A stretch of DNA of 64,000 nt, from positions 3,132,710 through 3,196,709 of the forward strand of contig NZ_BOQE01000001.1 in assembly GCF_023705585.1 (NCBI RefSeq), in the 5' to 3' direction. Shown here in pieces: positions 36,270 through 61,703 of the stretch. Source of the DNA: Collibacillus ludicampi. Its GTDB lineage: Bacteria > Bacillota > Bacilli > Tumebacillales > BOQE01. The notes under the pieces were generated by a model. It saw only the letters and a program-made list of their open reading frames with translations. It did no database searches and was not told the DNA's origin. Position 1 is the first letter of the stretch. Each line of letters starts with the position of its first letter. A program made the position numbers and the translations under genes.

Positions 36270-36339
36270 GTGACTTTTTGCTTCATCTGCACACATAAAG
36301 TTATTCTACAACGGATTCCTATCTTTGGAGGGTGAGCGG

Positions 36340-37263
36340 ATGCTGGATGTGCTCATTATTGGAGGGGGGCCTGCCGGAATGGCTGCGTCCATCTGGTGTA
36401 AACGGCTGGGGCTTCGCAGTCTTTTATTGGAACGTCGGGCGGAACTGGGCGGACAATTGTTTTCGATCAACAATCCGGTTATCGATTACCCGGGGATTTC
36501 AGTACAAACGGGCCGTGAATTGGTTCCTTATTTTCTTTCACATGTGCACGAACTTGGATGCAGTTACAGATGCAATGTAACGGTTATGGAGATCGCCGTT
36601 GCCAGGAAAACGGTCGTGACAGCCGAAGAGACTTTCACCGCGCATTCATTGATTCTGGCGATGGGAAGCCGGGAACGCCGCTTAAATGTTCCTGGAGAAA
36701 AAGAAATGATCGCACGTGGAGAAGTCTATTCTGCCAGTCGGGATTTTCATAAATTTCAAGGAAAACAAGTGGCTGTCATCGGCGGGGGAGACCGTGCGTT
36801 GGAAGGTGCATGGCTACTGGCGGAAGCGGGCGCCCGCGTCGAACTGATCCATCGTTCCTCTCTGTTTCGTGCAAGGCCCGAATTTCGCGAACGAGTATTT
36901 GCGCATCCGAGGATCCGGATCCATAGAGATACGATTGTGAAGCGAATTATTGGAGAATCGCGTGTACAGGCGGTCGAAATCCGGCAAACGTCTCATCCCT
37001 CCCGGTTGGAAATCGTACCGGCAGATGCCGTTTTTGTTCGCATCGGCGTCGAACCGAATCGGGAATTGGTACAAGGCCAAGTGCAGTGCGATACCGATGG
37101 TTACATCATCACAAACGAAGACGGGGAAACGAGTGTCAAAGATGTTTTCGCCATCGGTGACCTTTGTGTACGCCCGCTTTTTTCAAGTATTTCTTTATCA
37201 GTAGGACAGGCGGCCAGAGCGGTGAAGAGAATATCGGCCAACATCTTCCGCCTGCCTTCCTAA
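36340..37263 (+). CDS. TrxB-like FAD/NAD(P)H oxidoreductase lacking the CxxC pair
   Basis: A 307-residue two-dinucleotide-fold flavoprotein. FAD motif GGGPAGMAAS near residue 8, GGQL, the NADPH motif GGGDRALEGAW near 150, and a C-terminal FAIGD FAD loop. Thioredoxin reductase has CATC just before the NADPH fold; here that position reads YSASRDFHKF, so it cannot reduce thioredoxin by the usual route. Ferredoxin/flavodoxin reductases of the YumC type also lack the pair, making an Fd-NADP reductase-like or other acceptor plausible. The ATG at 36340 follows GGAGGGTGAGCGG. It is inserted between trmD and rplS and convergent with the SDR gene. Confidence 0.8.
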   Translation: MLDVLIIGGGPAGMAASIWCKRLGLRSLLLERRAELGGQLFSINNPVIDYPGISVQTGRELVPYFLSHVHELGCSYRCNVTVMEIAVARKTVVTAEETFTAHSLILAMGSRERRLNVPGEKEMIARGEVYSASRDFHKFQGKQVAVIGGGDRALEGAWLLAEAGARVELIHRSSLFRARPEFRERVFAHPRIRIHRDTIVKRIIGESRVQAVEIRQTSHPSRLEIVPADAVFVRIGVEPNRELVQGQVQCDTDGYIITNEDGETSVKDVFAIGDLCVRPLFSSISLSVGQAARAVKRISANIFRLPS

Positions 37264-37280
37264 CAGCGTTAGAGAATATT

Positions 37281-38234
37281 TTATTTCGGATTTACTTTCT
37301 CCAAATGAAAATAAGTGAAGCGACCTGTTTTATTGCGGTCGAGCGTCCGTACCGTGTAAAGGGTGAGATCGTTCTTTTGACGGCTCACTTGTTCGACGAG
37401 CCCTCTGCTGTTCCAAGGGTACACATATACTTCTTCTCCCGGTGAAAATTGAACGGGATCGAGCACATCGTTTTTCGTGATTTCGTCCGTCAAAATCACG
37501 GTATCGATCCCGCCGTTCAGTTGAATGACATTCCCGGTCACGTAATCCGCATGTTCATCGATGAGAAATTGGACGGTGCGCGTAATATCGTCTGCCATAC
37601 TGATGCGTCCGATGCGATCATGCGTTTGCAGATATTCATCCAAAAACGTTTCTTTCCACTTCCCCCTTATATCCCCCGGACACACCATATTGACTGTAAT
37701 TCCATTATGTCTTTCTTCGAGTGCGAGCGTTCTCGTGAATGAGACGAGTCCGACTTTTGCAGCTGCGTATGCGCTGCGATAACGCCAGCCACGCGCTTGT
37801 TCAGCGCCGTCAAATCCGAATGTGATGATACGGCCAAATCCTTGCTTGCGCATGTAAGGGATCACAAGCTTACTTAGGTAAAATGCGCTCGATAAATTAC
37901 TGTCGATCATATACTTCCAATCGCTGATATCCATATCGGTTGCCCGTTGACGTTGATACAAAAACGGGCCTGCGCAGTGAATCAAGATATCGATTGTTCC
38001 AAATCGTTCGATAGACTCACGGATCAAACGTTCTGCCTCTTCAAAGTACGAAACATCCGCCTGAACGATATGACATTCCGTATGGGTCGCTTGAATTTTG
38101 TTTTGCAGCTGCAGACATGCTTCCGCAGACGTGCGGTAATTCAGGATGATACGGTGACCTTGTTCCGCGAGGCGGTAAGCGATGGCGGAGCCGAGCCCCG
38201 TGGCGCTTCCTGTTATGAGAACACTCCTTCTCAT
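37281..38234 (-). CDS. SDR family oxidoreductase with extra C-terminal domain
   Basis: Residues 1-245 are a FabG-like short-chain dehydrogenase: GSATGLGSAI cofactor loop, HCAGP, YRSAYAAAKVG with the catalytic Tyr-Lys, and VTGNVIQLNGG. A further tail of about 70 residues (from about 247) is rich in beta residues (FSPGEEVYVYPWNSRGLVEQ) and looks like a small SH3-like barrel not usual in SDRs. The catalytic Ser position reads TFGFDG, so the Ser is not obvious. The ATG at 38234 has its GGAGG 24 bp away; an in-frame CTG at 38252 sits 4 bp after it and might be the real start. Substrate unknown. Confidence 0.8.
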   Translation of the reverse strand: MRRSVLITGSATGLGSAIAYRLAEQGHRIILNYRTSAEACLQLQNKIQATHTECHIVQADVSYFEEAERLIRESIERFGTIDILIHCAGPFLYQRQRATDMDISDWKYMIDSNLSSAFYLSKLVIPYMRKQGFGRIITFGFDGAEQARGWRYRSAYAAAKVGLVSFTRTLALEERHNGITVNMVCPGDIRGKWKETFLDEYLQTHDRIGRISMADDITRTVQFLIDEHADYVTGNVIQLNGGIDTVILTDEITKNDVLDPVQFSPGEEVYVYPWNSRGLVEQVSRQKNDLTLYTVRTLDRNKTGRFTYFHLEKVNPK

Positions 38235-39191: not shown

Positions 39192-39321
39192 ATATTTGTG
39201 GCACGGCTCTTTGTTTGCAGTTGTTTATTCATTGCTACCAAATGTCGCCTTGTACCCCTTTCGATAGTACAATTTTGTCATCGGCTCTTAGAGTTTAATT
39301 AACTCATGAAAGGTGATGACC

Positions 39322-40524
39322 ATGGCACGCGTTTTGCTGATCAACGGAGGTTCCGAAGGACATATCAATCCAACCCTCGGTGTGGTTCAAGAACTTATCC
39401 GTCGTGGCGAAGAGGTGGTTTACTTTGTGGCGGAACAATTTCGTGATCGCGTCGAGCCAACGGGCGCAGAGGTGATCACGTTCGATAGCGGCAAATTTTT
39501 GGAGGCGTTCCTTGCTGGAGGAAGAAATTTTTGGGCTCGAGTGGGTGGACTTTTGCGCACCGCCGACATCGTCATTCCCAGTGTCCTGGAGCAAACAAAA
39601 GGAAAACGTTTTGATTACATCATTCATGACTCGATGTTCGGCTGTGGGCGTTTGCTTGCACAAATACTTGACCTGCCGGCAATCAACTCGTGCACGAGTT
39701 TTGCATTTCAACAAAACAGCTTTGACAGTCTGCGAGATCACCTCTCGCGCCATTTTCCAGCAGACGTGAATGAACGTGCACAACAGGAGTTTCAACAGCT
39801 GGTCAGTAACGTGCAAGCGAAATACAATGTGCAAGTTGGCTCCGCCTATGAGGTTTTCTGCAATCCTGCGCCATTGACCATCGTCTACACGTCGAAACGC
39901 TTCCAACCCGATGGAGAAAGTTTCGACGAATCGTACAAGTTTGTTGGACCGTCTATCGCTCCGCGCTCACACGGTCAATTTGATTTTTCTCATGTAGACA
40001 CGGACAACCTGATTTACATATCACTCGGTACCGTGTTCAATCAAGCAGTGGATTTTTACAAGCTCTGCTTTGAGGCGTTTGCAAACACGAAGTACACAGT
40101 AATTCTATCCGTTGGTAGACAAACCCATATAGCGAAATTGGGAGACATTCCTGCGAATTTCATTGTCCGCAATTACGTACCGCAACTCGAAGTGCTGCAA
40201 CACGCCAAATTGTTTATCACACACGGCGGTATGAACAGTACAAGTGAAGGTCTTTATTACGGTGTGCCGCTGATTGTGCTTCCCCAAAGCGCCGACCAAC
40301 CTATTGTTGCGCGACGTGTGGCTGAAATCGGTGCGGGCATCCACCTCAATCAAGAAGGCTTAACCGCGGGAGATCTTAGAGAGGCAGCGGAACGAGTGCT
40401 CAAGGATGCGTCAATCAGAAAGGTATGCGTTGAAATTGGAGATTCGTTCCGAGCTGCGGGTGGGTATCATCGAGCCGTCGAGGAAATCTTCGAGTATAAA
40501 CGAAGCGTAGGCATCACGAAATGA
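39322..40524 (+). CDS. MGT family glycosyltransferase (macrolide/UDP-glucuronosyl type)
   Basis: A 400-residue GT-B enzyme. N-terminal acceptor domain starting ARVLLINGGSEGHINPTLG; C-terminal donor domain with the PSPG-like block FITHGGMNSTSEGLYYGVPL and LPQSADQPIVARRV. Relatives (YjiC, YojK, oleandomycin glycosyltransferases) move glucose from UDP-glucose to macrolides, flavonoids or other small aglycones, which can detoxify antibiotics. The ATG at 39322 is 7 bp after GAAAGGTG. It stands alone between the rplS terminator and lepB, in a place usually occupied directly by rbgA, suggesting acquisition. The acceptor cannot be told from sequence. Confidence 0.88.
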   Translation: MARVLLINGGSEGHINPTLGVVQELIRRGEEVVYFVAEQFRDRVEPTGAEVITFDSGKFLEAFLAGGRNFWARVGGLLRTADIVIPSVLEQTKGKRFDYIIHDSMFGCGRLLAQILDLPAINSCTSFAFQQNSFDSLRDHLSRHFPADVNERAQQEFQQLVSNVQAKYNVQVGSAYEVFCNPAPLTIVYTSKRFQPDGESFDESYKFVGPSIAPRSHGQFDFSHVDTDNLIYISLGTVFNQAVDFYKLCFEAFANTKYTVILSVGRQTHIAKLGDIPANFIVRNYVPQLEVLQHAKLFITHGGMNSTSEGLYYGVPLIVLPQSADQPIVARRVAEIGAGIHLNQEGLTAGDLREAAERVLKDASIRKVCVEIGDSFRAAGGYHRAVEEIFEYKRSVGITK

Positions 40525-42908: not shown

Positions 42909-44192
42909 ATGGAAATCCTTTCTTCCTTCACCCAACTGACCGCTCGTCTGCTCTCGAATACCCTTCTCAATCTCGATGGTGTACCACAACCGGTTGGTAC
43001 ACCGATACATCGTTCCGCGAAAAAAGAGGGCGACCTGACTCCACTCGAAAAACAAGTATCGTTGCGAGAGAATCCATCTCTTCCAGTCAGCGGGACTTTG
43101 ACAAAGATCCTCACCGATTTACAGATCGATGATACAAGGGAAGCCCGACAAGTTATAAAAGAAATGGTCACAGTTGGATTGCCTGTAACAAAAGAGGAAG
43201 TCATGAAAGTCTTGCAAGTGATTAAGGAAATAAAGGGAGACGAACGCGCGGTTACCACTGCAGTGCGTATGCTTGCCTTACAAATTCCTTTATCGAAACA
43301 CACCCTTCTCGCGGTAGACGCTCTCTGGAACGGTCATCCGCTTCACGAGTTATTAGAACAAGTACGCCCCTTTCAACAGTTACTCGATGAGCATCATACG
43401 ATGAATGCACGTGGCAACACATTGCCGCCGACAATTTTTGAGCGGGAAGCTGAACGGGCGCATTCTTTTTTTGAAGAAAGCGAAACTTTTCTTTCGTTCG
43501 AAAAATGGATGAATCTCTCACAAAAAGAAAAGGCCGATATCTTGAGTCGAATGAGGGAGCGGCTCGGGTTATCACACGAGCGGGAATTGGTACGCCATTG
43601 GGTAGAGAAATCCGGTCGATCGGAAAGACACATGCGATACCGTACATGGAAGGAATTCGCCATCCATCTGTTGTATATAACAGGAAAAGAAGGTGAAGCT
43701 TCCTGCACTACGGATGAAAAGTTACAACAAGCGATTGATCACTTACTTGCCAATCTGACGGGACAACAATTGATGCATACCCATAAGGACGAGACTTCTC
43801 CTTTTTTCTATCACTTCTTTTCTCTTCCATTTTCATATGAGAACAAGAAATCGACGATCGGGATACACATTCTCGCACACAAGGATGAGAAAAGGAAGCT
43901 AGACCCTGCAAATTTTCTGTTGTGTCTACATCTTGAACTTCCTCGTACTGGAACTGTCGACGTATTTTTGCATTCGATTCAAAAAGTTATTAATTTACGT
44001 CTTCTTGTTCCTGAGAGTTCGCTTCTTCCGGTTTTCGATGATGAAATCTCAACATTGAGAGAAGGTATACGGGCGGTTGGTTATCATCTCGGCGCAGTTC
44101 GTGTGGAAAAACGTACAGCTCCTTTAACTGACGCAGATATCACCTTAATGATGAGATACCTTTCGGCGAAACAAGTGGATCTACGCATATGA
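42909..44192 (+). CDS. ylqG: YlqG-like protein with FliK-type C-terminal domain
   Basis: A 427-residue protein of low conservation. The long N-terminal part is hydrophilic and helical; the last ~110 residues (about FLLCLHLELPRTGTVDVFLH to the end) resemble the C-terminal domain of flagellar hook-length control protein FliK: beta strands, then a helix and REGIRAVGYHLGAVRVEK. It occupies the ylqG place before ylqH, whose product resembles the FlhB tail. In flagella FliK talks to FlhB, so a paired function outside the flagellar operon is suggested. The ATG follows GAGGGAGGAAAAG. Family call is from position and pattern. Confidence 0.7.
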   Translation: MEILSSFTQLTARLLSNTLLNLDGVPQPVGTPIHRSAKKEGDLTPLEKQVSLRENPSLPVSGTLTKILTDLQIDDTREARQVIKEMVTVGLPVTKEEVMKVLQVIKEIKGDERAVTTAVRMLALQIPLSKHTLLAVDALWNGHPLHELLEQVRPFQQLLDEHHTMNARGNTLPPTIFEREAERAHSFFEESETFLSFEKWMNLSQKEKADILSRMRERLGLSHERELVRHWVEKSGRSERHMRYRTWKEFAIHLLYITGKEGEASCTTDEKLQQAIDHLLANLTGQQLMHTHKDETSPFFYHFFSLPFSYENKKSTIGIHILAHKDEKRKLDPANFLLCLHLELPRTGTVDVFLHSIQKVINLRLLVPESSLLPVFDDEISTLREGIRAVGYHLGAVRVEKRTAPLTDADITLMMRYLSAKQVDLRI

Positions 44193-44201
44193 GGTGGGAT
44201 G

Positions 44202-44468
44202 ATGAGAGAGAAACCGAAATACGCGGCTGCCCTTTCTTATAACCCTGAGACGGATCTCGCTCCGCGTATTGTAGCCAAGGGGCGGGGAGAAGTAGCGGCA
44301 AAGATTCTCGCATACGCCAAGGAAAATGGCCTGCCGATTCAAGAAAATAGGGAGCTTGTGGAGACGCTGCTGACGTTGGATCTCGGACAAGAAATCCCTT
44401 CGGAACTTTATCGGGTGGTTGCGGAAATTCTCTCATTTGTGTATCGTCTCGAAGGAAAGGGAAGATGA
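44202..44468 (+). CDS. ylqH: FlhB C-terminal-like protein (YlqH)
   Basis: An 88-residue soluble protein matching only the cytoplasmic tail of the flagellar export gate FlhB: AAALSYNPETDLAPRIVAKG, AYAKENGLPIQENRELVETL, and the C-terminal helix ending FVYRLEGKGR. The membrane part is absent and the self-cleaving NPTH motif reads NPET, so autocleavage is not expected. The second ATG (44202) is favoured because the first overlaps GAGGTGGG. It sits between the FliK-like ylqG and yraN. Confidence 0.9.
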   Translation: MREKPKYAAALSYNPETDLAPRIVAKGRGEVAAKILAYAKENGLPIQENRELVETLLTLDLGQEIPSELYRVVAEILSFVYRLEGKGR

Positions 44469-48395: not shown

Positions 48396-48839
48396 CTACT
48401 TGGAAAACTGTCGATCCATTGTACGGTAAGTGATGGCCTCAGCCACGTGATCTGCAAGGATTTCTTCAACTCCTTCAAGATCCGCGATTGTCCGTGCCAC
48501 TTTAAGAATGCGGTGATGGGCGCGTACCGATAGACCGAGGTTTTCGAATGCTTGCTTCAAGAGCATTTGTCCTTCAGGGGATAGTTTGCAGTGGGTGCGT
48601 ATTTCCCTTGTGGTCATCCAGGCGTTTACTGGTATCGTTTTGTGTGGAAATCTGACCATTTGACGTTGTCTCGCTTGTTCTACACGTTTACGAATGGAAG
48701 ACGATGTCTCTCCTGCTTGTACCGAAGTAACATCAGAATACGATATGTTAGGCACCTCCACATGAAGATCGATACGGTCGATCAACGGCCCTGATAATTT
48801 GCTCCGATATCTGTGAACTTGCTGAGGGGTGCACGTACA
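48396..48839 (-). pseudogene. comM: comM (YifB family Mg-chelatase-like AAA ATPase), 3' part, split by the prophage
   Basis: The minus-strand frame ending at 48396 reads CTCTPQQVHRYRSKLSGP, then LIDRIDLHVEVP and the family C-terminal region (AHHRILKVARTIADLEG), that is about 147 residues of ComM. Family similarity stops at about 48839 (the second CxC Cys pair), where the prophage begins. The remaining ~360 N-terminal residues must lie past the right edge. ComM helps branch migration during natural transformation. On precise excision the gene would be rejoined. Confidence 0.9.
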
Positions 48840-50497
48840 TGGGGTGAGCGAATCCGTACTATAAAAGCCACACGGGCATCCGTGTGGTTAACACCTTTGA
48901 AAAAGGTATAACGAACTTCCACGGTTGCCCTCGGTTTTTTACGGCCGTTATTAGGCAGGTGTGAGTGGATAATGATTTCTTTGACAAGTGTTTTTACAAT
49001 CTCTCGACGAACTTCAAAACTGTCGTTGTTTCGCAACTTTTCTCTGAGATTGGCTAGCAACTGTTGGAGATTATCGAACTTCTTCAAGAGATCTTGTTCT
49101 TCTTCAATTTGTTCAGAGAGCACCTTAACACGTTCTTGTAAAGAAGCTTTTTCCTGTTCTATCTTTTTGAACTGTATCTCCACATCGGCACTACCGATAA
49201 TCTTTTTTCTGAACAGGTCAAGAATGCTTTGCTTTTCGATCTCCTTTTCCTCAATGGCCTTCATAATGAGATTTCTTTCTGCTTCATAGTCCTCATTACA
49301 AGAAGACCTTGTTTCCATCGTAGCTGCCAATTCCTTCATGGCCTCACCCGGATTCTCTATAAACGCTAAACAAGCGTCCCAGACCTTTTTTTCGATCCAT
49401 TCGGCAGGAATATTCCTCGATGGACACTTTCCAAGATAGGGACCTCGATAAGTTGTTTTACCGTTGCAGATATAATAAGGTTTATGTGTTCCCTTTGAAC
49501 TCGGAAAACGAGTCGCGCCATAATTGAGGCCACAACATCCACAACGGATAAGTCCGCGCAAGAGGTTTTGTCTCTTCGCGTTTCGCATGGATTCTATCTG
49601 GTTTTCACGTAAGACTAGTTGGGCTTTATCCCACACTTCTTCAGAAACGATTGCCGGAACTTGTCGGAGTATAAGGTCTCTTTCTTTTGATGCTCTTTTT
49701 CCGTAGTGGTGGATACCTTTATAAGTCTCATTGATGATCATATTGCGTATCCGCGATGGTCTCCATATTCCCGCTGTGTTTTCTTGACGTTTTCCTCGTT
49801 TCACCTTGCGGCCGTCTTTCGTGTAGGAGGGAGGGACCCCGAGTGCGTTCAAATAGTCTGCGATTTTTACAGTTGACATCTTTTGTTCGACCGTTAGACG
49901 GTAGATGAGCCGAACGACATCTGCTTCACTCATATCCATGCCTGGGAGCGGTTCCTCATTCACTTCTAAGTAGCTTTCGTCGTTCACTCGGTATCCATAC
50001 GGTACAATACCGCCAAGCCACCTGCCTTCTCGTGCTGCACGATTAGCACCGTGCCACATACGTTCCAGGATGGTCTCGCGTTCCAAGTCTGCGACCCCTG
50101 CGAGAATGGTCAAAAGGAATCTCCCGTTCGGATCACCGGTGTCAAAAGGCTCTGTCATGCTACGAATTTTCACGCCGTACTGTTCGAGTTCATGGACAGC
50201 GTTCAAAATGATGCGTGCCGATCGTCCGAGACGGTCAAGTCGGTAGATCAATAGGAGGTTGAACACGCCTTTTTTTGCATCCTCCAACAGTTTTGCGCCT
50301 TCTTCTCTCGACTCAAGGGGAATCGTACCAGACACGCCATCATCCTTGTACCAGCGAACTATCTCAATTTGATGGAGATCGCCATATTTCCGGCCGAATT
50401 CAAGCTGGTTTTCGATTGTACCACGTTCTGCCTGTTCTTCTGTTGAAACGCGTCCGTAGACAGCAGCGCGGATTTGATACTGTGGTGTAATTGCCAT
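48782..50497 (-). CDS. int: Large serine recombinase (phage integrase)
   Basis: A 571-residue serine integrase. Catalytic domain with Ser18 in AAVYGRVSTEEQ and YRLDRLGRSARI; recombinase domain; zinc ribbon (IRCGCCGLNYG, then YYICNGKT and GKCPSRN); coiled coil at about 395-480. The ATG at 50497 follows GGAGGAATCATT. The last ~18 residues and the stop codon are read from comM DNA. One extra A in the AAA run at 48896-48898 would instead end the protein at a TAA (48888-48890) after 536 residues, just before the hairpin, so the tail may be a frameshift product. Directs integration and, with a directionality factor, excision at comM. Confidence 0.92.
   Translation of the reverse strand: MAITPQYQIRAAVYGRVSTEEQAERGTIENQLEFGRKYGDLHQIEIVRWYKDDGVSGTIPLESREEGAKLLEDAKKGVFNLLLIYRLDRLGRSARIILNAVHELEQYGVKIRSMTEPFDTGDPNGRFLLTILAGVADLERETILERMWHGANRAAREGRWLGGIVPYGYRVNDESYLEVNEEPLPGMDMSEADVVRLIYRLTVEQKMSTVKIADYLNALGVPPSYTKDGRKVKRGKRQENTAGIWRPSRIRNMIINETYKGIHHYGKRASKERDLILRQVPAIVSEEVWDKAQLVLRENQIESMRNAKRQNLLRGLIRCGCCGLNYGATRFPSSKGTHKPYYICNGKTTYRGPYLGKCPSRNIPAEWIEKKVWDACLAFIENPGEAMKELAATMETRSSCNEDYEAERNLIMKAIEEKEIEKQSILDLFRKKIIGSADVEIQFKKIEQEKASLQERVKVLSEQIEEEQDLLKKFDNLQQLLANLREKLRNNDSFEVRREIVKTLVKEIIIHSHLPNNGRKKPRATVEVRYTFFKGVNHTDARVAFIVRIRSPHVRAPLSKFTDIGANYQGR
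48825..48862. other. Left attachment site (attL) of the prophage
   Basis: Inferred junction between comM homology (up to about 48839) and element DNA (from the recombinase terminator at about 48862). The core is not visible without the right end; TGTACGTGC of comM is the likely neighbourhood. Confidence 0.6.
48862..48887 (-). terminator. Hairpin at the 3' end of the recombinase gene
   Basis: Perfect 8-bp arms CCACACGG and CCGTGTGG around a 4-base loop, followed on the minus strand by CTTTTAT. It looks like a terminator but lies inside the current recombinase reading frame, about 23 bp from comM sequence. Confidence 0.7.
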
Positions 50498-50540
50498 AAT
50501 GATTCCTCCGTTACCAAACTTATGTTCGCGTTTGTAGATG

Positions 50541-50579
50541 AAAATAAAAGCCCAACTATGCTTAACAATTTCGATGGGC
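50541..50579 (-). terminator. Terminator after the ImmA-like gene
   Basis: Minus-strand GCCCA/TGGGC with a 20-nt loop, followed by TTTTATTTT. It separates immA from int. Confidence 0.6.
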
Positions 50580-50607
50580 GAGTAAAAACCTCGGTTTGGT
50601 TACGCTT

Positions 50608-51024
50608 TTAAAACTTTCCCACCATCTCTTGCGGTACACCGTTCCTAGCATAGAAGCACTCAAGCGTCTCATGTTCTTCAATCTCGCTGAAAGCTGTCAT
50701 CAGATGCACTGCAAAAAGGTTGGCTTGCCGTTCATACTTCCCAGGGTTGAAGAGGGTGTGTTGTTCGATGAAGTAGTAGCCGAGTAAACCTCTGTGGAGA
50801 CGATCATGGCCTAGCTCGTGGGCGCAGACGAAACGTTGCCATTCTTCTGATATTTTATCATTTATAACGATAAAACGGCGTGTGCGAGCTCTAAAATAAA
50901 ATCCACGGTAGCTGTCAGGGAGACTCTTGAAACGTACGTTAATGTTCAAATAGCCTGCAAGTTCAAATGGACAGTTTGTTTTATATTTTCTAACAAGATT
51001 TCTTACGCGACGTTTGATATCCAC
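50608..51024 (-). CDS. immA: ImmA/IrrE-type metallopeptidase
   Basis: A 138-residue zinc protease with HELGHDRLH (HExxH) in the middle and the third ligand region ERQANLFAVHLM. In ICEBs1 and related elements ImmA cleaves the ImmR repressor after DNA damage or cell-cell signals. The order repressor-immA-int on one strand is the same as in ICEBs1, so the same switch is likely. The GTG start follows GGAGAGGA. Confidence 0.88.
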   Translation of the reverse strand: MDIKRRVRNLVRKYKTNCPFELAGYLNINVRFKSLPDSYRGFYFRARTRRFIVINDKISEEWQRFVCAHELGHDRLHRGLLGYYFIEQHTLFNPGKYERQANLFAVHLMTAFSEIEEHETLECFYARNGVPQEMVGKF

Positions 51025-51097
51025 GTATCATCCTCTCCCCAAAGCACTCGATAAAATTCGATATGCTCCAAAAGAAAGCGAAAACGACACAACCTAA

Positions 51098-51556
51098 TCA
51101 AGCGTTGGTGTCGTTTCCTTGTTGCTCTTTCTTCTCTTTGTTTTTACGCCTCGCTTGTCTGTTCAACTCTCTCGCCTCGAAAAAGAGTTCGATCATGACA
51201 TCTTCAATGCGTTTTCGATCCTCTTCGCTCATGTTGGGAAGAGCATAGAACATCACCTCAGCGTCCTTCAGGAACTTGTCCACTTCTCTTTTCTCGCGGG
51301 AAGAGAGTTTTCTCATCATGTCGTCTGTTTGTGAAGTATATGACGGATCGTCGGTGCGGCCGAGTAGGTAGTCAACTGAGACGCCGAAAATATCAGCAAT
51401 TTTGAGCAAGGTTTCATCACGGGGAATTCGACCTTTTATCTCAGATTCGTATCCCGCTATCGTAGATCGCGAGACTCCCAGTACTTCCGCTGCTTTATCT
51501 TGAGTCCAACCTTTTTGTTCCCTTAAAAGCCTGAATCTCGTCGCAAATGATTCCAT
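51098..51556 (-). CDS. Xre-family repressor (CI/ImmR-like)
   Basis: A 152-residue repressor. N-terminal helix-turn-helix about 6-60 (RFRLLREQKGWTQDKAAEVLGVSRSTIAGYE), then a VDYLLGRTDDP linker and a helical C-terminal half without a LexA-like peptidase motif, so it depends on ImmA for inactivation. The ATG at 51556 follows GGTGGTG; the frame is open through the operator region but coding starts here. It probably binds the GTTCC-N5-GGAAC operators beside it. Confidence 0.88.
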   Translation of the reverse strand: MESFATRFRLLREQKGWTQDKAAEVLGVSRSTIAGYESEIKGRIPRDETLLKIADIFGVSVDYLLGRTDDPSYTSQTDDMMRKLSSREKREVDKFLKDAEVMFYALPNMSEEDRKRIEDVMIELFFEARELNRQARRKNKEKKEQQGNDTNA

Positions 51557-51599
51557 TGTATCACCACCGGAACATTGTAACCTAATTTTAGCTAAAAAC

Positions 51600-51629
51600 G
51601 TTCCTAAAAGAAACGTTGACTTTAGGAAC
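51600..51629. promoter_or_regulatory. Two imperfect repressor operators, adjacent
   Basis: GTTCCTAAAAGAAAC (51600-51614) and GTTGACTTTAGGAAC (51615-51629): both match GTTCC-N5-GGAAC with mismatches in one arm and lie on the repressor side, suited to autoregulation. Confidence 0.6.
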
Positions 51630-51638
51630 AAAAAAGCG

Positions 51639-51667
51639 TTGACAATGTTCCTTACCGGAACTATTAT
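51639..51667 (+). promoter_or_regulatory. Rightward early promoter of the prophage
   Basis: TTGACA, 17 bp, TATTAT. The whole spacer contains the perfect operator at 51647-51661, so repressor binding would block RNA polymerase. It leads to the cro-like gene and the early operon. Confidence 0.88.
51647..51661. promoter_or_regulatory. Perfect repressor operator inside the early promoter
   Basis: GTTCC-TTACC-GGAAC, a perfect 15-bp dyad in the promoter spacer. Confidence 0.85.
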
Positions 51668-51680
51668 AAAAGTAGATGTT

Positions 51681-51695
51681 GTTCCTAAACGGAAC
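51681..51695. promoter_or_regulatory. Perfect repressor operator downstream of the early promoter
   Basis: GTTCC-TAAAC-GGAAC, centred 34 bp from the previous site (about three helical turns), between the transcription start and the cro-like gene. Confidence 0.85.
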
Positions 51696-51715
51696 GAGAA
51701 AGTGAGGTGAAGACT

Positions 51716-51937
51716 ATGCAGCAACGAGAAAGATTAATTCAACGTCGCTTGGAGTTAAATATGAACCACGAGCAAGTAGCGGAACTCGCAAAAATAACAA
51801 GAGCATACTATTCAAACATTGAAGCCGGAAGAAAAACACCTTCTATGAGGGTAGCGAAAAGAATCGCTGACGCTCTTCAGACAACTGTAGATCAAATTTT
51901 TTTTGAAGGTGATGTTCCGAAAAGGAACACAGCTTAA
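51716..51937 (+). CDS. Cro-like Xre regulator
   Basis: A 73-residue helix-turn-helix protein (QRRLELNMNHEQVAELAKITRAYYSNIEAGRKTP) with a family ending ADALQTTVDQIFF. First gene after the early promoter, as expected for Cro. The ATG at 51716 follows GAGGTGAAG. Its last codons contain the operator at 51914. Confidence 0.85.
   Translation: MQQRERLIQRRLELNMNHEQVAELAKITRAYYSNIEAGRKTPSMRVAKRIADALQTTVDQIFFEGDVPKRNTA
51914..51928. promoter_or_regulatory. Third perfect operator, inside the cro-like gene end
   Basis: GTTCC-GAAAA-GGAAC, another perfect dyad, 219 bp past the last site. Distant enough to suggest looping or a roadblock. Confidence 0.7.
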
Positions 51938-52038
51938 CCTGCATAGTTTGCGCAATTTGAAATTTGTACAAGAGGTGATCGATTGAACGTTCACCACTGA
52001 AATGCAAGACATCCTTCAAGCGCAGACCGATGAAGTAA

Positions 52039-52218
52039 CGCCGTAGTGCCAATCGAGCAAGATCTTTAGCTGGAGGTGGATTGGATGTAGGCTTACGGCA
52101 AGAGTCATTAAGCCGTATTGAAAAAGGAAAATTCAATCCATGATTAGATACTCTGGAACGAATCGCCAAAGCTCTTTGTGTTTCAGTGGCGTAGTTGTTA
52201 GAGGAGGAGACTAACAGG
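52039..52218 (+). pseudogene. Decayed Xre regulator
   Basis: The frame from 52039 reads GLRQESLSRIEKGKFNP, stop (TGA 52141), LDTLERIAKALCVSVA, stop (TAG 52192): a second Xre helix-turn-helix broken by two base-substitution stops and lacking its start. Unlike the later genes it shows no homopolymer loss. The rest of the 310-bp gap 51938-52249 holds nothing else recognisable. Confidence 0.7.
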
Positions 52219-52249
52219 AAGTCACCAGTGCATAAAGGGGGGATTCACG

Positions 52250-52450
52250 TTGAAGCCGCAAGAGCTTCAGGAACCCAAGGAACAGATCAAAAAGGTTTCT
52301 GACATCAAAGACCCTCCTGGAATCACAATCCGTGAAGTATTCGAGCCGGACATGGAACGGATGGTCAAGGCTCTTAATATCGTACTGGATTCTTCACGGT
52401 TCGCCAAAAAGACGGAACAGAAGAAGAGGGAGCAGGAGGAGTCGGCTTGA
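52250..52450 (+). CDS. Small hypothetical prophage protein
   Basis: 66 residues, very charged (MKPQELQEPKEQIKKVSDIK), helical, no known motif. The TTG follows AAAGGGGGG, a strong site. Early operon position. Confidence 0.6.
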   Translation: MKPQELQEPKEQIKKVSDIKDPPGITIREVFEPDMERMVKALNIVLDSSRFAKKTEQKKREQEESA

Positions 52451-52486
52451 GCAACAAGGGTAGTGAGTGTGAGGGGGGTGAATGGA

Positions 52487-52669
52487 TTGGTTATAAAAAG
52501 GTTTGAAGTATCCGACGATCAACTTGACCGCTTAACAAAAATCGCAGTTGAACACTCGCGTCTATCCGCTGAGTACGGTCGCAAGGAAACGTCCGATGAA
52601 CGTCGGGAGGAAATTATCTTGCGGATCAAGGAACTTCGGGCGGAACGTGCCAGGATATTGCAATCATAA
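52487..52669 (+). CDS. Small hypothetical prophage protein
   Basis: About 60 residues, two charged helices (DDQLDRLTKIAVEHSRLSAE and IILRIKELRAERARI), possibly a coiled-coil dimer. The TTG at 52487 is 7 bp after GAGGGGGGTG; an in-frame GTG at 52463 would make it 8 residues longer. The following 245 bp up to 52916 hold no gene. Confidence 0.55.
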   Translation: MVIKRFEVSDDQLDRLTKIAVEHSRLSAEYGRKETSDERREEIILRIKELRAERARILQS

Positions 52670-52915
52670 ACCGAGTTTAGTGGATGGACGATCATTGGGG
52701 GCATGTCCCGCTCGCCGGGGGATGTCCGAACGAGCGGCAGAGTGAGGGAGTGAGATGCGAGAAGGAGAACCACCAAGCCGGGGAGGACTTGGCCCAGCGA
52801 GGATACCGGTTGGTTCGATGTGAGAGGCTTTTCATCTGGTAATAGCATACAACGGCTTGGTTAAGCATAGTAGCCTCCTTTTCTCACAAAATTCGTGCAG
52901 AAATGGGGTGTGTAG

Positions 52916-53218
52916 ATGACATCAACTGAGGTTGGTGCACTGCTTCGAATGTGTCGGGAGATGGCCGGATTGTCACAGGATGCACTCGCTCAACAGTTAC
53001 ATTCAAACAGAAATACGATCTCGCGAATCGAAAACGGAAAAGACATGCCAGAGATTGATCTCTTTGTGAATTGGGCATTTGCGACAAGGGCGAACGGGAT
53101 CGTTGAAGCCTACTTGTCTCAACAACTCAGAGGTCAGGAACAAGCGCAAGCTTTCTTTCAGATCATGCATGCGATTCGAGATGTTGCTGCGGTACTCAGT
53201 AAGTTTCAGATTGCATGA
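52916..53218 (+). CDS. Xre-family transcriptional regulator
   Basis: A 100-residue protein with helix-turn-helix about 6-45 (LLRMCREMAGLSQDALAQQL, then NRNTISRIENGKDMP) and a helical C-terminus. A third regulator in the early region, possibly controlling middle genes. The ATG follows GGGGTGTG. The next gene begins at its stop. Confidence 0.8.
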   Translation: MTSTEVGALLRMCREMAGLSQDALAQQLHSNRNTISRIENGKDMPEIDLFVNWAFATRANGIVEAYLSQQLRGQEQAQAFFQIMHAIRDVAAVLSKFQIA

Positions 53219-53235
53219 AAGGAGCTTGGAAATTT

Positions 53236-53397
53236 ATGAGGTTTGAAACAGTGGAGGAAATCCAACGCCACATCATGCAGCTAGAAGAGTTCTTACGGAC
53301 ACCGAACTTGCCTTACGATGTGACGCAAGATGTACGTGCGGAGTTGTCGGATTACAAGGTTCAGCTCTATCGCATGATACGGGGATTGGCTTCATGA
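53236..53397 (+). CDS. Small hypothetical prophage protein
   Basis: 53 residues (MRFETVEEIQRHIMQLEEFL), helical and charged. GAAAGGAGC is about 10 bp before the ATG at 53236; an ATG at 53215 overlapping the Xre gene is the alternative. Overlaps the next start by 4 bp. Confidence 0.6.
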   Translation: MRFETVEEIQRHIMQLEEFLRTPNLPYDVTQDVRAELSDYKVQLYRMIRGLAS

Positions 53398-53591
53398 ACG
53401 CGGCTGAAGCGGTTGGCTATTACGAGAAGCAAATATGCGAATGGTGTTCGTTCAGGCAGGCAGGACTACTTCACGAATGTGTCAGGTGCCCTATCGAGAT
53501 TTGGAAGCAGGCAATTATTACGGAAGAAGCGAGGTTGTATTTGCAAAAACGAAGGCCCGATGCGGCAACATCGAGCCAGGAATTGGGGTAA
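53394..53591 (+). CDS. Small cysteine-containing prophage protein
   Basis: 65 residues with CEWC and CVRC pairs, probably a zinc ribbon or treble clef. Unknown function. Coupled to the preceding gene by an ATGA overlap; the next gene starts 64 bp later. Confidence 0.6.
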   Translation: MNAAEAVGYYEKQICEWCSFRQAGLLHECVRCPIEIWKQAIITEEARLYLQKRRPDAATSSQELG

Positions 53592-53654
53592 GGGTAATTA
53601 TGGATGTCCCCATTGTATCCTAAAGCTGCAAATTTAAGCAACGGAGGGGTGTTT

Positions 53655-54185
53655 ATGAGTCTACAAGAACAGGCATTCCAGTCGCAAGAAATGCGTGAAT
53701 CATTCGTTATCGACACCAAGGAGAAAGCCGTCTGGGCTTTGCGTAAACTGGCCAAGATCCGCAGAGAGATGGAGGAAAACCAATCCATCGCAGACAAAGA
53801 GATCGAGCGGATCAAGTTGTGGCTAGAGGACGTGAACGGCGCTCTTCAAAAAGATGCAGAGTATTTTGAGAGCTTGCTTCAAGCGTACCATCGCATGGTA
53901 CTTGAAGAGAATCCGAAAGCAAAAACCATCAAATTGCCGCACGGTACGCTAAAGGCCCGCAAACAAGAACCGGATTACATCAGAGATGAAGAAAAGCTTC
54001 TTGCGTGGACAAAAGAGAATCAGCCAGAAGCGGTCAAGGTTAAGGAGAACGTCGATTGGTCGACGTTAAAGAAAATGATCGTCAGCACGGAAAACGGCGT
54101 CGCCATTGACGAAAATGGTCAGGTGATCGAGGGCATTACGGTGGTGGATCGTGGCATCAAATTCTCGGTGGAGGTGGCTGAGTAA
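53655..54185 (+). CDS. gam: Host-nuclease inhibitor Gam-like protein
   Basis: A 176-residue Gam-family protein: long N-terminal coiled coil (KAVWALRKLAKIRREMEENQ), central YFESLLQAYHRMVLEENPKAKTI, and a beta C-terminus with RDEEKLLAWTKEN. Mu-type Gam binds double-strand ends and blocks RecBCD/AddAB. The ATG at 53655 follows GGAGGGGTG. Its stop overlaps recT, making a Gam-Bet recombination pair. Confidence 0.85.
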   Translation: MSLQEQAFQSQEMRESFVIDTKEKAVWALRKLAKIRREMEENQSIADKEIERIKLWLEDVNGALQKDAEYFESLLQAYHRMVLEENPKAKTIKLPHGTLKARKQEPDYIRDEEKLLAWTKENQPEAVKVKENVDWSTLKKMIVSTENGVAIDENGQVIEGITVVDRGIKFSVEVAE

Positions 54186-55174
54186 TGGCGGAGGCAAAAG
54201 CCAATCTGCAAGTTGTTACCGGCGGTTCATCCATGCCGACTTTAAACGTATCAAACGAGCAAAAGCTGCAAGCTATCCGCGATACCGTTGCGAAAGGAGC
54301 AACCGACGCTGAGTTCGTCATGCTCATGCATTTGGCCAACCGGTATCAGTTGGACCCCTTTCTTAAAGAGATCTGGTTTATCAAGTACGGCAATACACCG
54401 ACCATCATGGTCAGCCGGGATGGTCTACGCAATTACGCACAACGACAAGAAGATTTCGAGGGTCTGATCAGTCAAGAAGTGCGGAAAGGGGACACATTCA
54501 AATACAACCCGATCACTGGTGAGATTCATCATGAAACCGGTGATGGTAGTGGACCTATTACGAAAGCGTACGCCCTCGTCTATCGGAAAAACCGAAAGCC
54601 GCATATCGAATTGGTAGATTTCAAGGAGTATTACGATGCACTAAGCGCGAAAAACCCCGTTTGGAAGTCTCATCCGAGTGCGATGATCAAAAAAGTTGCG
54701 GAGGTTCTGGCTCTCAAAAAATGCTACACGATCACGGGTCTCTATGCGCCGGAGGAAATGGGAATGCAGGAGCCGGATATGATCGATGTGACCCCGCCGG
54801 AAGAGTCCGAGAAAATCAGACCTAATCAAAAGCAATCCGTTGTCTATACGATCAATCATGATCAACCAAGGATGGCATCGGAAAAACAGCGCAAAGCCAT
54901 CTTCGCGATCGCGCATGAAAAGAACCTCTCCGATGACGAGATTCGTGAATGTATGATCGCGATCACAGGAAAATCGAGCACCAAAGAACTGACAAGCGAA
55001 GAAGCGAGCAAGCTGATCGAGTATTTCAAAAGCTATCAACCGATATCCCCAGATCAGCCAGCAACACCACAGATAGAACATGATCAGGCTATAGAGCAAT
55101 CAACACTCGATGACTTGCTTGGTGATTTACCCGACGAACTGGATCCAGATCAGAAGTTTCCGTGGGAAGAATAA
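54185..55174 (+). CDS. bet: Phage recombinase Bet (RecT family) with SSB-like acidic tail
   Basis: A 329-residue single-strand annealing protein. Bet/RecT core (about 35-205): LMHLANRYQLDPFLKEIWFI, TIMVSRDGLRNYAQRQ, AMIKKVAEVLALKK. A second helical module follows (ASEKQRKAIFAIAHEKNLSD), then an acidic Pro/Gln-rich linker and a terminal tip DELDPDQKFPWEE that resembles the SSB C-terminal tip used to dock recombination proteins. Overlaps gam by one base. Intact. Confidence 0.88.
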   Translation: MAEAKANLQVVTGGSSMPTLNVSNEQKLQAIRDTVAKGATDAEFVMLMHLANRYQLDPFLKEIWFIKYGNTPTIMVSRDGLRNYAQRQEDFEGLISQEVRKGDTFKYNPITGEIHHETGDGSGPITKAYALVYRKNRKPHIELVDFKEYYDALSAKNPVWKSHPSAMIKKVAEVLALKKCYTITGLYAPEEMGMQEPDMIDVTPPEESEKIRPNQKQSVVYTINHDQPRMASEKQRKAIFAIAHEKNLSDDEIRECMIAITGKSSTKELTSEEASKLIEYFKSYQPISPDQPATPQIEHDQAIEQSTLDDLLGDLPDELDPDQKFPWEE

Positions 55175-55175
55175 T

Positions 55176-55193
55176 GGGCGGCGGTGGCCGCCC
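55176..55193 (+). other. GC-rich hairpin after bet
   Basis: GGGCGGC/GCCGCCC with a GGTG loop directly after the bet stop. No T run, so more likely an mRNA processing or attenuation structure than a terminator. Confidence 0.5.
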
Positions 55194-55256
55194 GTATGGG
55201 GAACCGTGACGAGGTTTTGATGACGTTTAATGACAAAAAGAAGGAGGGAACAAGCA

Positions 55257-55734
55257 ATGCCCGCAGTTTTGATTTATGTACCATTGGGCAAAATCGTCCC
55301 AACCAAGTGTAAGGGGTAGCAACATTCCCCAGTATTACGGTGGAGCGCTTCATCAGGTAGAAATTCTGAAACAGGCTTTAGGCCCCCAAGTAGAAGCCGT
55401 TGGCATGATCGAGAATATTGAGAGACAGCTTTCATTTGACGATCCGAAAGCGGCGGAAAGCCGAAAGATTGCGGAGCGATTCATGAAAATGGCCGTGGAA
55501 GGAAAACCGGTAATTGCCATGATCGAAGCGAGAAATGAACTCGAAGCGTATTGGCGACTGGCGAAAGCCGTGTCACCTGATATTCCGGTCATTAATCCTA
55601 ATCGACTGGCCATCATCAAAGCTGTACCACTTCCCATGACACTTGAGGGGTATCAATGGTCACTTGATCAATCGATACGGTTGGCTTTGAAAAATTCGAG
55701 CCTAAACCGGCTGTACAGGAGAGGAATGATGTAG
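55257..55734 (+). pseudogene. Prophage gene with a frameshift, function unknown
   Basis: The ATG at 55257 follows GAAGGAGGGAA and reads MPAVLIYVPLGKIVPTKCKG, then stop. In the +1 frame the coding continues as GSNIPQYYGGALHQVEILKQ up to 55734. The switch lies near the GGGG at 55312-55316 (net loss of two bases or gain of one). The joined protein would be about 158 residues. The VPLGKIVPTK start recalls ParB-type nuclease proteins, but the rest does not convince me. Confidence 0.6.
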
Positions 55735-55964
55735 AGTGAATCCCCGTCTTCGTTGACACAGACGAGCCGATCATCTTCGTCAATATATGGTTCGATGGTC
55801 GTCGGGAAATGGATTTTTCCGCCATTTCTCAATTCAACCATGAACGTGTGGCTATCATAGCTGATTCTTGTCGCAAATTCAACGACATTCATGAGTGAAA
55901 TCTTGGTCGTTATCAAATCAAGAATGATATAGCGCCCCTCATAAGGGCCAAAAGTTCTTCCCAT
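55668..55964 (-). CDS. Minus-strand small protein inside the early operon
   Basis: 98 residues ending FSRFRLEFFKANRID-like; the middle VELRNGGKIHFPTTIEPYID reads as a beta-rich protein. It is opposite to all surrounding genes and overlaps the end of the previous one by 67 bp, like a moron gene. The best Shine-Dalgarno (GGAGGG) fits an ATG at 55975 in another frame (MSETWEELLALMRG, then stop), so the true start may be there with a frameshift near 55930. Function unknown. Confidence 0.5.
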   Translation of the reverse strand: MGRTFGPYEGRYIILDLITTKISLMNVVEFATRISYDSHTFMVELRNGGKIHFPTTIEPYIDEDDRLVCVNEDGDSLYIIPLLYSRFRLEFFKANRID

Positions 55965-56051
55965 GTTTCAGACATGTAAGATCCCTCCAGTATCTAATAA
56001 TAGATTTTCAATTATTTTATATCAGATTGATGAAGATAGGTGATGTGTGAA

Positions 56052-56205
56052 ATGCAGATTTTTGGATACGTGAAAACCGCAAGGCAAAGGTGAAGGTGGT
56101 GTTTGCGAATGGGGAAGTTGTTGAAGGGCCGCTTCTGGGGTGCTGACGCGGATGGATGTGCTCAAACATGTCGAATCCGCTGTGGTAGCGCACACAAGGC
56201 CATGA
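56052..56205 (+). pseudogene. Short prophage gene with two frameshifts
   Basis: ATG 56052 after AGGTGATG: MQIFGYVKTA, then (one A lost) KAKVKVVFANGEVVEGPLLG, then (one G lost) VLTRMDVLKHVESAVVAHTRP and stop just before the next ribosome-binding site. Both losses are in homopolymers. About 51 residues when restored. Unknown function. Confidence 0.45.
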
Positions 56206-56237
56206 ACAAGGCGACTGATACAACGGGGTGGTGTCCC

Positions 56238-56461
56238 ATGGCCTGGCTGAAAAGCCATCAGGAAATTGCGCGGCACCCGAAAACCAAAAGGCTGGCAAAA
56301 GCCTTGGATATTTCGTTGCCCACAGCTATAGGCCACCTTCATCTTTTGTGGTGGTGGGCGATGGACTTTGCAAAGAATGGAGACCTTTCAAAAGAGTGAT
56401 GATAGCCGCCGATGTCCGGATCTGCGGTAAGTGGAAGAAGGTTGTGTTCATTAAGAAGTAA
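56238..56461 (+). pseudogene. Phage replication protein N-terminal fragment (DnaD-type helper)
   Basis: ATG 56238 gives MAWLKSHQEIARHPKTKRLA and AIGHLHLLWWWAMDFAKNGDLSKE, then three stops. This is the start of a phage replication protein seen in Firmicute phages. In another frame VRICGKWKKVVFIKK follows to 56461. The rest of the protein is missing, so this gene is truncated as well as shifted. Confidence 0.6.
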
Positions 56462-56502
56462 TTGTGAATCAATCATCCAGCAGAGAAAGTAGGTGATTGG
56501 AC

Positions 56503-57324
56503 GTGAATTACATCCTCGAGTTGAATGCGTTTCGCGATTGGGTAATGATAAACCGCGCTTCCACCGGACAGATTGCTTTATGGTACGCGTTGATGTCCAT
56601 AAACAATCAGACTGGCTGGAAGGAATGGTTTTCGGCACCGAATCAAACGCTGCAACTGATGACTGGATTGTCCAGACAGGGATTAGACAAGGCGAGAAAC
56701 GGTCTAATACAACTTGGGCTAATTCAGTATAAGAAGGGAAGTCCAATCAAGCAGGCCAATACAAAATGATCTCTCTACTTTCTGACCGTCAAAAGTAGGC
56801 ACAGAAGGAGTCACACCAGTAGACACAGTGGTTGGCACAGAAGTAGGCACAGAAGTAGGCACAGAAGTAGGCACAGAAGTAGGCACAGAAGGAGCGTTCC
56901 AGTTGACACACGAGGAGCGCGGAAGTAGCACATACCTAAACATAAATATAAACAAAAAAGATGATGATGATCGCGTGCGTGATTCGATGAGAGAAATAGC
57001 AGAATGCTATGCAACTCTACGTGGAATCAAGATCCATTCGCTAACAAGCGCGGATATCGGATATATCAGCAAGTTGGCGGAATCTGAAATCCCACTCGAT
57101 TTCATCCTACAAACCATGAAATCCATTGCGGAACAGTATGACGTGAATTCCATGTTCTACTTCTTCAAAGCGATAAACAGCGAGTGGAAAAAATCGGGGA
57201 TATCAAGAAGGTGCATGCTGAAGTTGCAGGTGCATCCGCTTTGGCCAATGCGGAAGCATACTCAAAGCAGATGCCGGAAAGCGTGCAGCGTACGCTTAGG
57301 AGGTTGCTCCATGCAAGCGGCTAA
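56503..57324 (+). pseudogene. Phage replication initiation protein (DnaD-like), frameshifted
   Basis: GTG 56503 after AAAGTAGGTGATTGG: MNYILELNAFRDWVMINRAS, a known N-terminus of phage replication organisers. The frame changes three times: one A lost near 56744 (restoring PNQAGQYKMISLLSDRQK), one A lost in AAAA near 56801 (giving VGTEGVTPVDTV and the VGTE repeats), one A lost in AAAAAA near 57190 (giving IGDIKKVHAEVAGASALANA). The last frame ends at TAA 57322 after LRRLLHASG. Joined length is about 274 residues: wHTH, VGTE linker, DnaB2-like domain (SADIGYISKLAESEIPLDFI). Confidence 0.65.
56831..56890 (+). repeat. 12-bp minisatellite coding for (VGTE)5
   Basis: GTWGGCACAGAA repeated five times in tandem inside the replication-initiation gene, encoding five VGTE tetrapeptides; a degenerate copy lies at about 56804. 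It forms the linker between the two domains. In-frame, so copy changes alter only linker length. Confidence 0.9.
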
Positions 57325-58651: not shown

Positions 58652-58656
58652 AAGTC

Positions 58657-58866
58657 ATGATCATGAGGCAAATCGTGAAACTTTTACAGACGATCGAGCG
58701 GGAAACGGAACGGGAACTCCTGAAAGACAGAAAGCATTCGAAGAACTGAACAAGCTCGCTTTAAAACTTGCTCAAATCAAAGAATGTGGTGACCGGGAAG
58801 GATTCGCAAGCACAGATTCAACAATCGACCATCGCCACGATTGAACGGCACAACCGGCAAAAGTAG
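58657..58866 (+). pseudogene. Small prophage gene, frameshifted
   Basis: ATG 58657 after AAAGGGGTG: MIMRQIVKLLQTIERETERE; one G lost near 58709 restores GTPERQKAFEELNKLALKLA, and a second change near 58782 gives VTGKDSQAQIQQSTIATIER to the TAG at 58864. About 68 residues, helical, unknown function. Confidence 0.45.
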
Positions 58867-58910
58867 GAGCGATGACATCGCCGCATGCATGAGAGGAGGA
58901 GAAAAGTTTT

Positions 58911-59716: not shown

Positions 59717-59962
59717 ACCGCGAGATGATATTCCAACTGATCGACGCCGAACGACTCCGACAAGACGCCATGCACCCGAAGTGGTACGAGAAAAGGCGTT
59801 TACGAGGAGACGGGTGAAGTAGCGAAGGTGCTGAATGTAGAAGTTGGGGATGGCTTACAACGTTTTCCGAAAAGAGAGACAGCCAAGAAGGTGGCCGATG
59901 GGCTAAAGGATAGGTATCAAGAGGCCCGGATTGAGCAAGAGAAGACAGGTTTTGTTGTATAG
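59713..59962 (+). pseudogene. Small prophage gene, frameshifted, possibly MazG-like
   Basis: ATG 59713 overlaps the previous stop: MNREMIFQLIDAERLRQDAM, HPKWYEK, then stop. In another frame VYEETGEVAKVLNVEVGDGL continues to TAG 59960. The pattern RQD..HPKWYE then EETGEVA recalls phage MazG-like nucleotide pyrophosphohydrolases, but that is only a resemblance. Net change near 59794, two bases lost or one gained. Confidence 0.45.
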
Positions 59963-59990
59963 TATCGAGGGCTGAGAGGGAGGGGAAAGA

Positions 59991-61637: not shown

Positions 61638-61703
61638 TTCCTCTTTTCGGCGTTTCTATGTAACAGGCAACCTAAAATAGCATTGACGTGAGGGGAGATC
61701 CAT

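Follow-up and report, generated by a model that had tools for sequence, protein, structure and literature searches.

ylqG and ylqH of Collibacillus ludicampi encode a FliK-like protein and a free FlhB tail that very probably play an accessory role in flagella

The analysed stretch of the Collibacillus ludicampi genome (64,000 nucleotides, hereafter the window) contains two adjoining genes, ylqG and ylqH, which the original prediction had read as a FliK-like and an FlhB-tail-like gene lying side by side. Both open reading frames are present on the + strand, 6 nt apart and flanked by rnhB and yraN; the end of rnhB lies 16 nt from the start of ylqG, and yraN overlaps the 3' end of ylqH by 4 nt, a spacing by which the run rnhB–ylqG–ylqH–yraN looks like one transcript. 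The four gene names are those of the original prediction, backed by tblastn of the window proteins against relatives. The features of the locus are as follows.

42909..44192, + strand: ylqG, FliK-like (switch-domain) protein of 427 aa (ORF; Flg_hook match; orthologues above the cut-off)
43086..43331, + strand: helical N-terminal region of YlqG, residues 60-141 (AlphaFold2 whole-protein model, local pLDDT about 71-85)
43803..44117, + strand: predicted FliK-type substrate-specificity-switch (T3S4) domain of YlqG, approximately residues 299-403 (PF02120, hhalign, model, PDB folds 5cuk and 2rrl)
44175..44189, + strand: C-terminal tail of YlqG, VDLRI (pattern counts in relatives; FliK tails compared)
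44199..44468, + strand: ylqH, an FlhX, that is, a stand-alone FlhB cytoplasmic tail, 89 aa (PF01312, TIGR00789 below its cut-off, phmmer, tree)
44208..44219, + strand: EKPK, YlqH residues 4-7, aligned with the NPTH cleavage site of FlhB (alignment to E. coli FlhB 268-271)
44241..44252, + strand: NPET, YlqH residues 15-18, not the cleavage site (aligned with E. coli FlhB 279-282)
44259..44264, + strand: Ala21-Pro22 of YlqH, corresponding to A286-P287 of the Salmonella FlhB early-substrate pocket (alignment; PMC9307174)
44421..44432, + strand: Ala75 to Leu78 of YlqH, of which Ala75 and Leu78 correspond to A341 and L344 of the same pocket (alignment; PMC9307174)

The same genome codes for a full-length FlhB at C1:3387523, about 210 kb from ylqG-ylqH, and for a stronger FliK at C1:3379897, about 203 kb away, adjoining ORFs that we read from their sequence as FlgD-like and hook-like. 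Since this stronger FliK lies elsewhere, among hook genes, YlqG is named here FliK-like and not FliK. A scan of the window with a sigma-D consensus and two mismatches allowed found no sigma-D-like promoter upstream of ylqG; in the whole window it gave 12 sites with two mismatches, for a chance mean of 5.3.

The window has other features besides. A macrolide-family (MGT) glycosyltransferase gene at 39313-40524 (400.9 bits, cut-off 260), far under the cut-off of the macrolide-inactivating model, is flanked by rplS and lepB, both named by reading and tblastn. At 36325-38234, between trmD-like and rplS-like genes, two more proteins are encoded, one resembling thioredoxin reductases and the other short-chain dehydrogenases, the latter extended at its C-terminus; both are below the NCBIfam cut-offs among the matches listed. 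A prophage-like block occupies 48782-62336, from which four proteins were searched against PHROGs:

48782-50497, - strand: large serine integrase
54185-55174: RecT-like protein
60170-61000: DNA methylase
61704-62336: transcription-activator-like protein

Two collections of relatives were used for comparison. The genome set comprised 34 loci (the window's own, three from relatives in the same order and the 30 best matches of a phylum search), two of them without a readable frame, which left 32 FlhX. The named set consisted of the best 80 of at least 572 relatives found with one peptide pattern. Neither is a random sample, and they have one identical protein in common (L065 = L138). The named loci, being the best 80 of at least 572, come from Nitrospirota, Desulfobacterota and relatives, Bacillota, Thermotogae, and Thermovibrio and relatives, as well as from Chloroflexi, Deferribacteraceae, Coatesbacteria and unplaced bacteria.

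The likeness of YlqH to the cytoplasmic tail of FlhB was borne out. The protein matches PF01312 at positions 260-335 only, the last 76 of the profile (E 6e-21), so that the membrane domain of FlhB is absent, as had also been predicted, and phmmer matched it to the FlhB structures 3b1s and 3b0z. Its best matching model is TIGR00789 ('FlhB-like', flhB_rel; E 2.5e-29), at 101.3 bits and thus below the curated cut-off of 117.35, so that YlqH is not filed under that model; this cut-off is passed in few genomes (2/398 of the phylum sample). The proposal that NPET stands in place of NPTH, with cleavage lost, proved to be a misalignment: both in the alignment to E. coli FlhB and in the register of the phmmer alignments NPET falls beyond the cleavage site, which reads EKPK, and NPET is thereby ruled out as a dead cleavage site. 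By this alignment YlqH starts at the cleavage site and resembles an FlhB fragment that is already cut. The same appears to hold for its family. NPTH is found in 31/31 aligned Bacilli FlhB and 0/112 FlhX, and in the 32 FlhX of the genome set 4-25 residues precede E. coli position 274, when each frame is read from its earliest potential start and with row L076 trimmed beforehand; FlhX would therefore encode roughly the fragment that FlhB frees by self-cutting.

Early substrates are reported to dock on Salmonella FlhB through A286, P287, A341 and L344 (PMC9307174). This pocket, as the pattern A-P-A-[LIVMF], is conserved in FlhX, in 32/32 of the genome set and 74/80 of the named set (best 80 of at least 572), and 14 columns are invariant among 21 aligned FlhX. 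Another site differs: what reads LA[RQ] in 43/43 FlhB is [VAI] followed by E, Q, N or D in 97 of 111 FlhX, with R in one, so that FlhX may have lost the activity of the FlhB tail. A loop is also one residue shorter in FlhX than in 40 of the 42 FlhB measured. As a universal mark of FlhX we have dropped this deletion, since two Nitrospirota FlhB have it too and its column shifted from one alignment to another.

In a tree of 75 columns (FastTree), 43 FlhB tails and 111 distinct FlhX separate with zero misplaced rows and a support of 0.999; FlhX of Helicobacter pylori was not among the rows, and a Thermotogae FlhB that reads NPVH, one of the 12 fetched from named genomes, was excluded by the N[PA]TH filter. 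Because of this clean split and the changed LA[RQ] site, FlhX looks like an old family and not the product of serial recent duplications of FlhB.

The C-terminus of YlqG, likened to FliK in the original prediction, was found similar to it in both profile and predicted fold. By itself YlqG matches PF02120 (Flg_hook) weakly (residues 340-403, E 2e-4, 21.5 bits, cut-off 29.8), and the call becomes firm through its relatives: YlqG orthologues of the same order that lie beside FlhX exceed the cut-off, with 44.7 (G095), 44.0 (G106) and 33.0 (G035) bits, and an hhalign comparison of 31 YlqG with 30 FliK gave a probability of 96.8 (E 2.4e-10), as against 0.3 for reversed FliK and 0.1-0.2 for FlhB; ten Bacilli YlqG compared with FliK gave 92.6 (E 4.7e-7). 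The model of the last 143 residues (62 rows) has a pLDDT of 85.5, and Foldseek placed the switch domain of PscP and the C-terminal domain of FliK (5cuk and 2rrl) at ranks one and two, each with a probability of 1.00, at E 0.009 and 0.044, no match reaching E ≤ 0.001. VIA-align gave Z 6.4 for FliK and 5.8 for PscP (next row 4.7); a Z below 8 is weak proof by itself, and the switch-domain call is made because profile and fold agree. Taken together, these profile and model comparisons firmly predict that YlqG ends in a FliK-type (T3S4/Flg_hook) switch domain. The best phmmer match of YlqG among PDB sequences had E 0.19, and a comparison of YlqG with the NCBIfam models gave no match. The AlphaFold2 model of the whole protein, built from 7 rows, has an overall pLDDT of 49.5 and was left out of the fold search. 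We also noted that the YlqG of the window (42909-43085) is without an N-terminal segment, apparently rich in beta structure, which is present in Tumebacillus and other relatives; its frame of 434 codons is the shortest of the same-order frames listed, six others having 581-687 codons.

YlqG ends in VDLRI, E. coli FliK in GVDIFA and the FliK of the window's genome in SGIDYIA. The five C-terminal residues of Salmonella FliK are reported to be important for switching (PMC10965912). A strict tail pattern, set on the genome set, fits 26 of its 31 YlqG, and a loose one fits all 31. Among the upstream partners of the named set (best 80 of at least 572 relatives), the strict pattern was present in 28/72, compared with 2/1092 other frames, these controls being frames of at least 150 codons from the same loci, many of them spurious. 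After inspection of the named set the pattern was widened, to 34/72 against 2/1092 with the D still required, and to 56/72 against 3/1092 in its most widened form. FliK proteins of this class keep the tail less well than YlqG does, since only 9/31 Bacilli FliK rows match the strict pattern, one row being a fragment read in the wrong frame.

FlhX is frequently paired. Counting upstream frames of at least 200 aa that end no more than 500 nt from flhX, 72/80 named loci (best 80 of at least 572) have one and 8/80 have none, and 60 of these 72 neighbours match Flg_hook at E ≤ 0.01, the other 12 giving no match. This conserved pairing is consistent with the earlier view of FliK and FlhB-tail domains as natural partners, and the frequency with which FlhX is paired with a FliK-type protein of its own, each carrying the surfaces of the FlhB–FliK switch, suggests that the two act jointly. 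In two Thermovibrio loci (L139 and L148) an upstream frame of 200 aa is missing, and the genome of L139 (G692) has no Flg_hook match; they offer a natural test of whether FlhX acts without a partner.

The housekeeping setting is shared less widely than the pair. By tblastn, rnhB and yraN were both found near flhX in 10 of the 80 named loci (best 80 of at least 572), all of them in Bacillota and including two Tumebacillus, two Selenomonas and two Syntrophomonas, with yraN 1.4 kb off in one; the setting is not universal in Bacillota either. In several Bacillus-like loci of the genome set (L063, L064, L073, L077 and L082) the gene downstream of flhX is one that we take to be sucC. The 52 ORFs neighbouring ten loci outside the order, for which 25 of 66 families were listed, are mostly housekeeping genes, with two rod-domain proteins among them. 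The 'ffh' tblastn matches found 5-6 kb upstream of flhX in L127, L161, L163 and L203 may be FlhF.

In spite of this position, FlhX goes with flagella. The class sample of 101 genomes, counted by hand from the match table, has a TIGR00789 match, taken as FlhB, in 79 genomes and none in 22; a free FlhX, defined by at least two such matches including a frame of less than 300 codons, is present in 68/79 genomes with FlhB and 0/22 without (Fisher 2e-14), the single match of the other 11 being FlhB. As these 11 are without FlhX, the protein is dispensable for flagella in general. With PF01312, a full FlhB was found in 212 of 299 genomes, 192 of which have at least two matches (hand count), and a strong match was found in none of the 87 genomes without FlhB. 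Weak matches in four of these 87 (G033, G167, G190 and G298), one of which is over the Pfam cut-off by tally, were rejected as FlhX because no TIGR00789 match accompanies them. The phylum sample gave a TIGR00789 match in 327/398 genomes and a single match in 96 (hand count). When 80 of these 96 were rechecked, two drafts had FlhX alone (G560, 84% complete in 260 contigs, and G659, 94% complete in 510 contigs), and in two other genomes the only FlhB accompanying FlhX was incomplete (G322, 99% complete, and G512, 86%). Each of the 12 named genomes examined has one full FlhB and one FlhX. Thus, the description of the pair as lying outside a flagellar operon is true of its position and misleading as to its company.

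Exactly two Flg_hook proteins were found in 10 of the 12 named genomes, and the weaker of the two, once by 0.2 bits, adjoins FlhX; the remaining two genomes gave no match at E ≤ 0.01. In the class sample, at least two Flg_hook matches are present in 43/68 genomes with FlhX and 1/11 without (Fisher 0.002; hand count, the position of the extra matches having been checked for some only). At least 13 of the 68 have two stand-alone FlhX frames, for instance G094 (C1:325332-325933), the others being G011, G016, G018, G037, G039, G051, G054, G064, G066, G069, G084 and G097; directly upstream of several second copies lies a frame with a Flg_hook match, of 1074-1939 codons in G066, G011, G051 and G094.

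We propose that ylqG and ylqH very probably have an accessory role in the flagellum. The cut tail of FlhB is reported to be the docking site of early substrates and to be lost in a FliK-dependent way at the change to late export (PMC13344023, mBio 2026); that paper also proposes that terminal residues of FliK destabilise the cut tail, and a search of its main text gave no mention of FlhX. Set beside this tail loss, our FlhX data are most simply accounted for if YlqH is a replacement FlhB tail and YlqG its FliK-type handler, a mechanism that, taken as a whole, we put forward tentatively and at slightly under an even chance. YlqH, which retains the docking pocket for rod and hook substrates, would be a diffusible form of the self-cut fragment and would probably substitute for the cut FlhB tail at an export gate, as a 'spare part'. 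YlqG would be its dedicated FliK-type partner, binding YlqH through the switch domain and the five-residue tail, and either keeping it in reserve or stripping it off again. To the homology, the conserved pocket and tail, the gene pairing and the co-occurrence with FlhB, all of them observed, we add by inference the binding of the two proteins, the presence of YlqH at the gate and the direction of the effect.

Could YlqH act without ever entering the gate? As it has neither the membrane part nor the linker by which the FlhB tail is attached to the gate, a cytosolic YlqH might serve as a decoy or brake that engages FliK-type switch domains and their tails, whether on FliK or on YlqG, and so keeps the gate from switching until the hook is complete. 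We think this fairly unlikely, since a mere decoy would have no use for an early-substrate pocket, and yet the pocket is kept throughout the genome set and in nearly all of the named set; moreover, it has been argued that Gram-positive bacteria do not need a brake of the Fluke type (PMC13344023). The genomes with a strong FliK and a second, divergent one, the double FlhX frames and the very long FliK-like frames in some of those genomes could speak for another arrangement, in which YlqG is a secreted ruler or switch protein for a different use of the gate, be it another kind of hook or filament or the release of secreted proteins, and YlqH its own FlhB tail. This second conditional switch pair seems rather unlikely to us, because the single full FlhB of each of the 12 named genomes would imply a single gate.

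The original prediction saw a repurposed pair with a job unrelated to flagella, and the position of the pair in a housekeeping neighbourhood that includes rnhB and yraN, together with the mostly housekeeping neighbours of the ten other loci (25 of 66 families listed), is what such a job would lead one to expect. The co-occurrence of FlhX with FlhB rejects it: no FlhX was found in the FlhB-less genomes of the class sample, nor a strong PF01312 match in those of the 299-genome sample, and all 12 named genomes have both proteins. An operon of a FliK homologue and an FlhB-domain protein in Pseudomonas putida, reported to be controlled by FleQ, a flagellar regulator (PMC5026340), points the same way, and we hold repurposing to be very improbable. 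That the pair is a functionless relic is scarcely credible; the 11 flagellated class genomes from which FlhX is missing would fit a relic, and against it stand the invariant columns of FlhX and the conservation of pocket, tail and gene pairing across loci of several phyla.

If YlqH does replace the FlhB tail, as we tentatively propose, the export switch might not be one-way. FlhX could be a supply of replacement tails that resets a spent gate to the rod/hook mode, for repair or reuse, with a second FliK-type protein loading or stripping it. This extension takes as its premise that FliK ejects the cut tail of FlhB at hook completion, and we consider it speculative and unlikely. Were it true, a resettable switch would be present in most flagellated bacteria of the class and in many from other phyla. 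To our knowledge Salmonella and E. coli have no FlhX, and they would then be without one. The frequent pairing makes the purpose of a free FlhB tail simply testable, just as tail removal is being proposed as the switch itself.

How does the pair compare with known systems? In PMC10746217, PMC9321776 and PMC4758666 FlhX figures as one entry among listed flagellar components, and the last of these gives it as an export part in Leptospira. ylqG is tabulated among the mutations of evolved B. subtilis clones (PMC11523185) and ylqH appears in an Aliarcobacter gene list (PMC9235176); the passages concerned in these two papers and in PMC4758666 contain no functional test of ylqG, ylqH or FlhX. In the open-licence literature, which omits most subscription papers, we found neither the cross-phylum pairing, nor the shared tail, nor a tested function of YlqG. 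Already in print are FlhX itself and the FleQ-controlled operon of P. putida. This operon, pp4328-4329, consists by its description of the same two kinds of gene and is reported to be activated by FleQ, only 1.8-fold (PMC5026340); it belongs to another phylum and another regulator, and the likeness is one of description, not of alignment. Likened by description too is the flhX-fliK pair of Nitratiruptor, whose genes are named together, away from the main flagellar cluster (PMC9321776).

Compared with FliK (PF02120, T3S4), YlqG has in common the predicted switch domain and the C-terminal tail; unlike it, YlqG is extra to a stronger FliK and lies outside the hook genes, and its N-terminal part is on average poorer in Q and richer in L. 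With the cleaved tail of FlhB (FlhBCC or CCD) YlqH shares the family, the pocket and an N-terminus near the cut, and it differs from FlhB, as FlhX does in general, in having no membrane part, no NPTH, a changed LA[RQ] site and a shorter loop. A close parallel to YlqH would be FlhX of H. pylori (HP1575, also entered under the name flhB2), likewise a homologue of the FlhB C-terminus beside a full FlhB, a comparison made from the title of the work and not from an alignment. According to that title (Wand et al. 2006), HP1575 reportedly 'acts as a spare part', which by analogy would favour, in principle, the replacement of the FlhB tail by YlqH.
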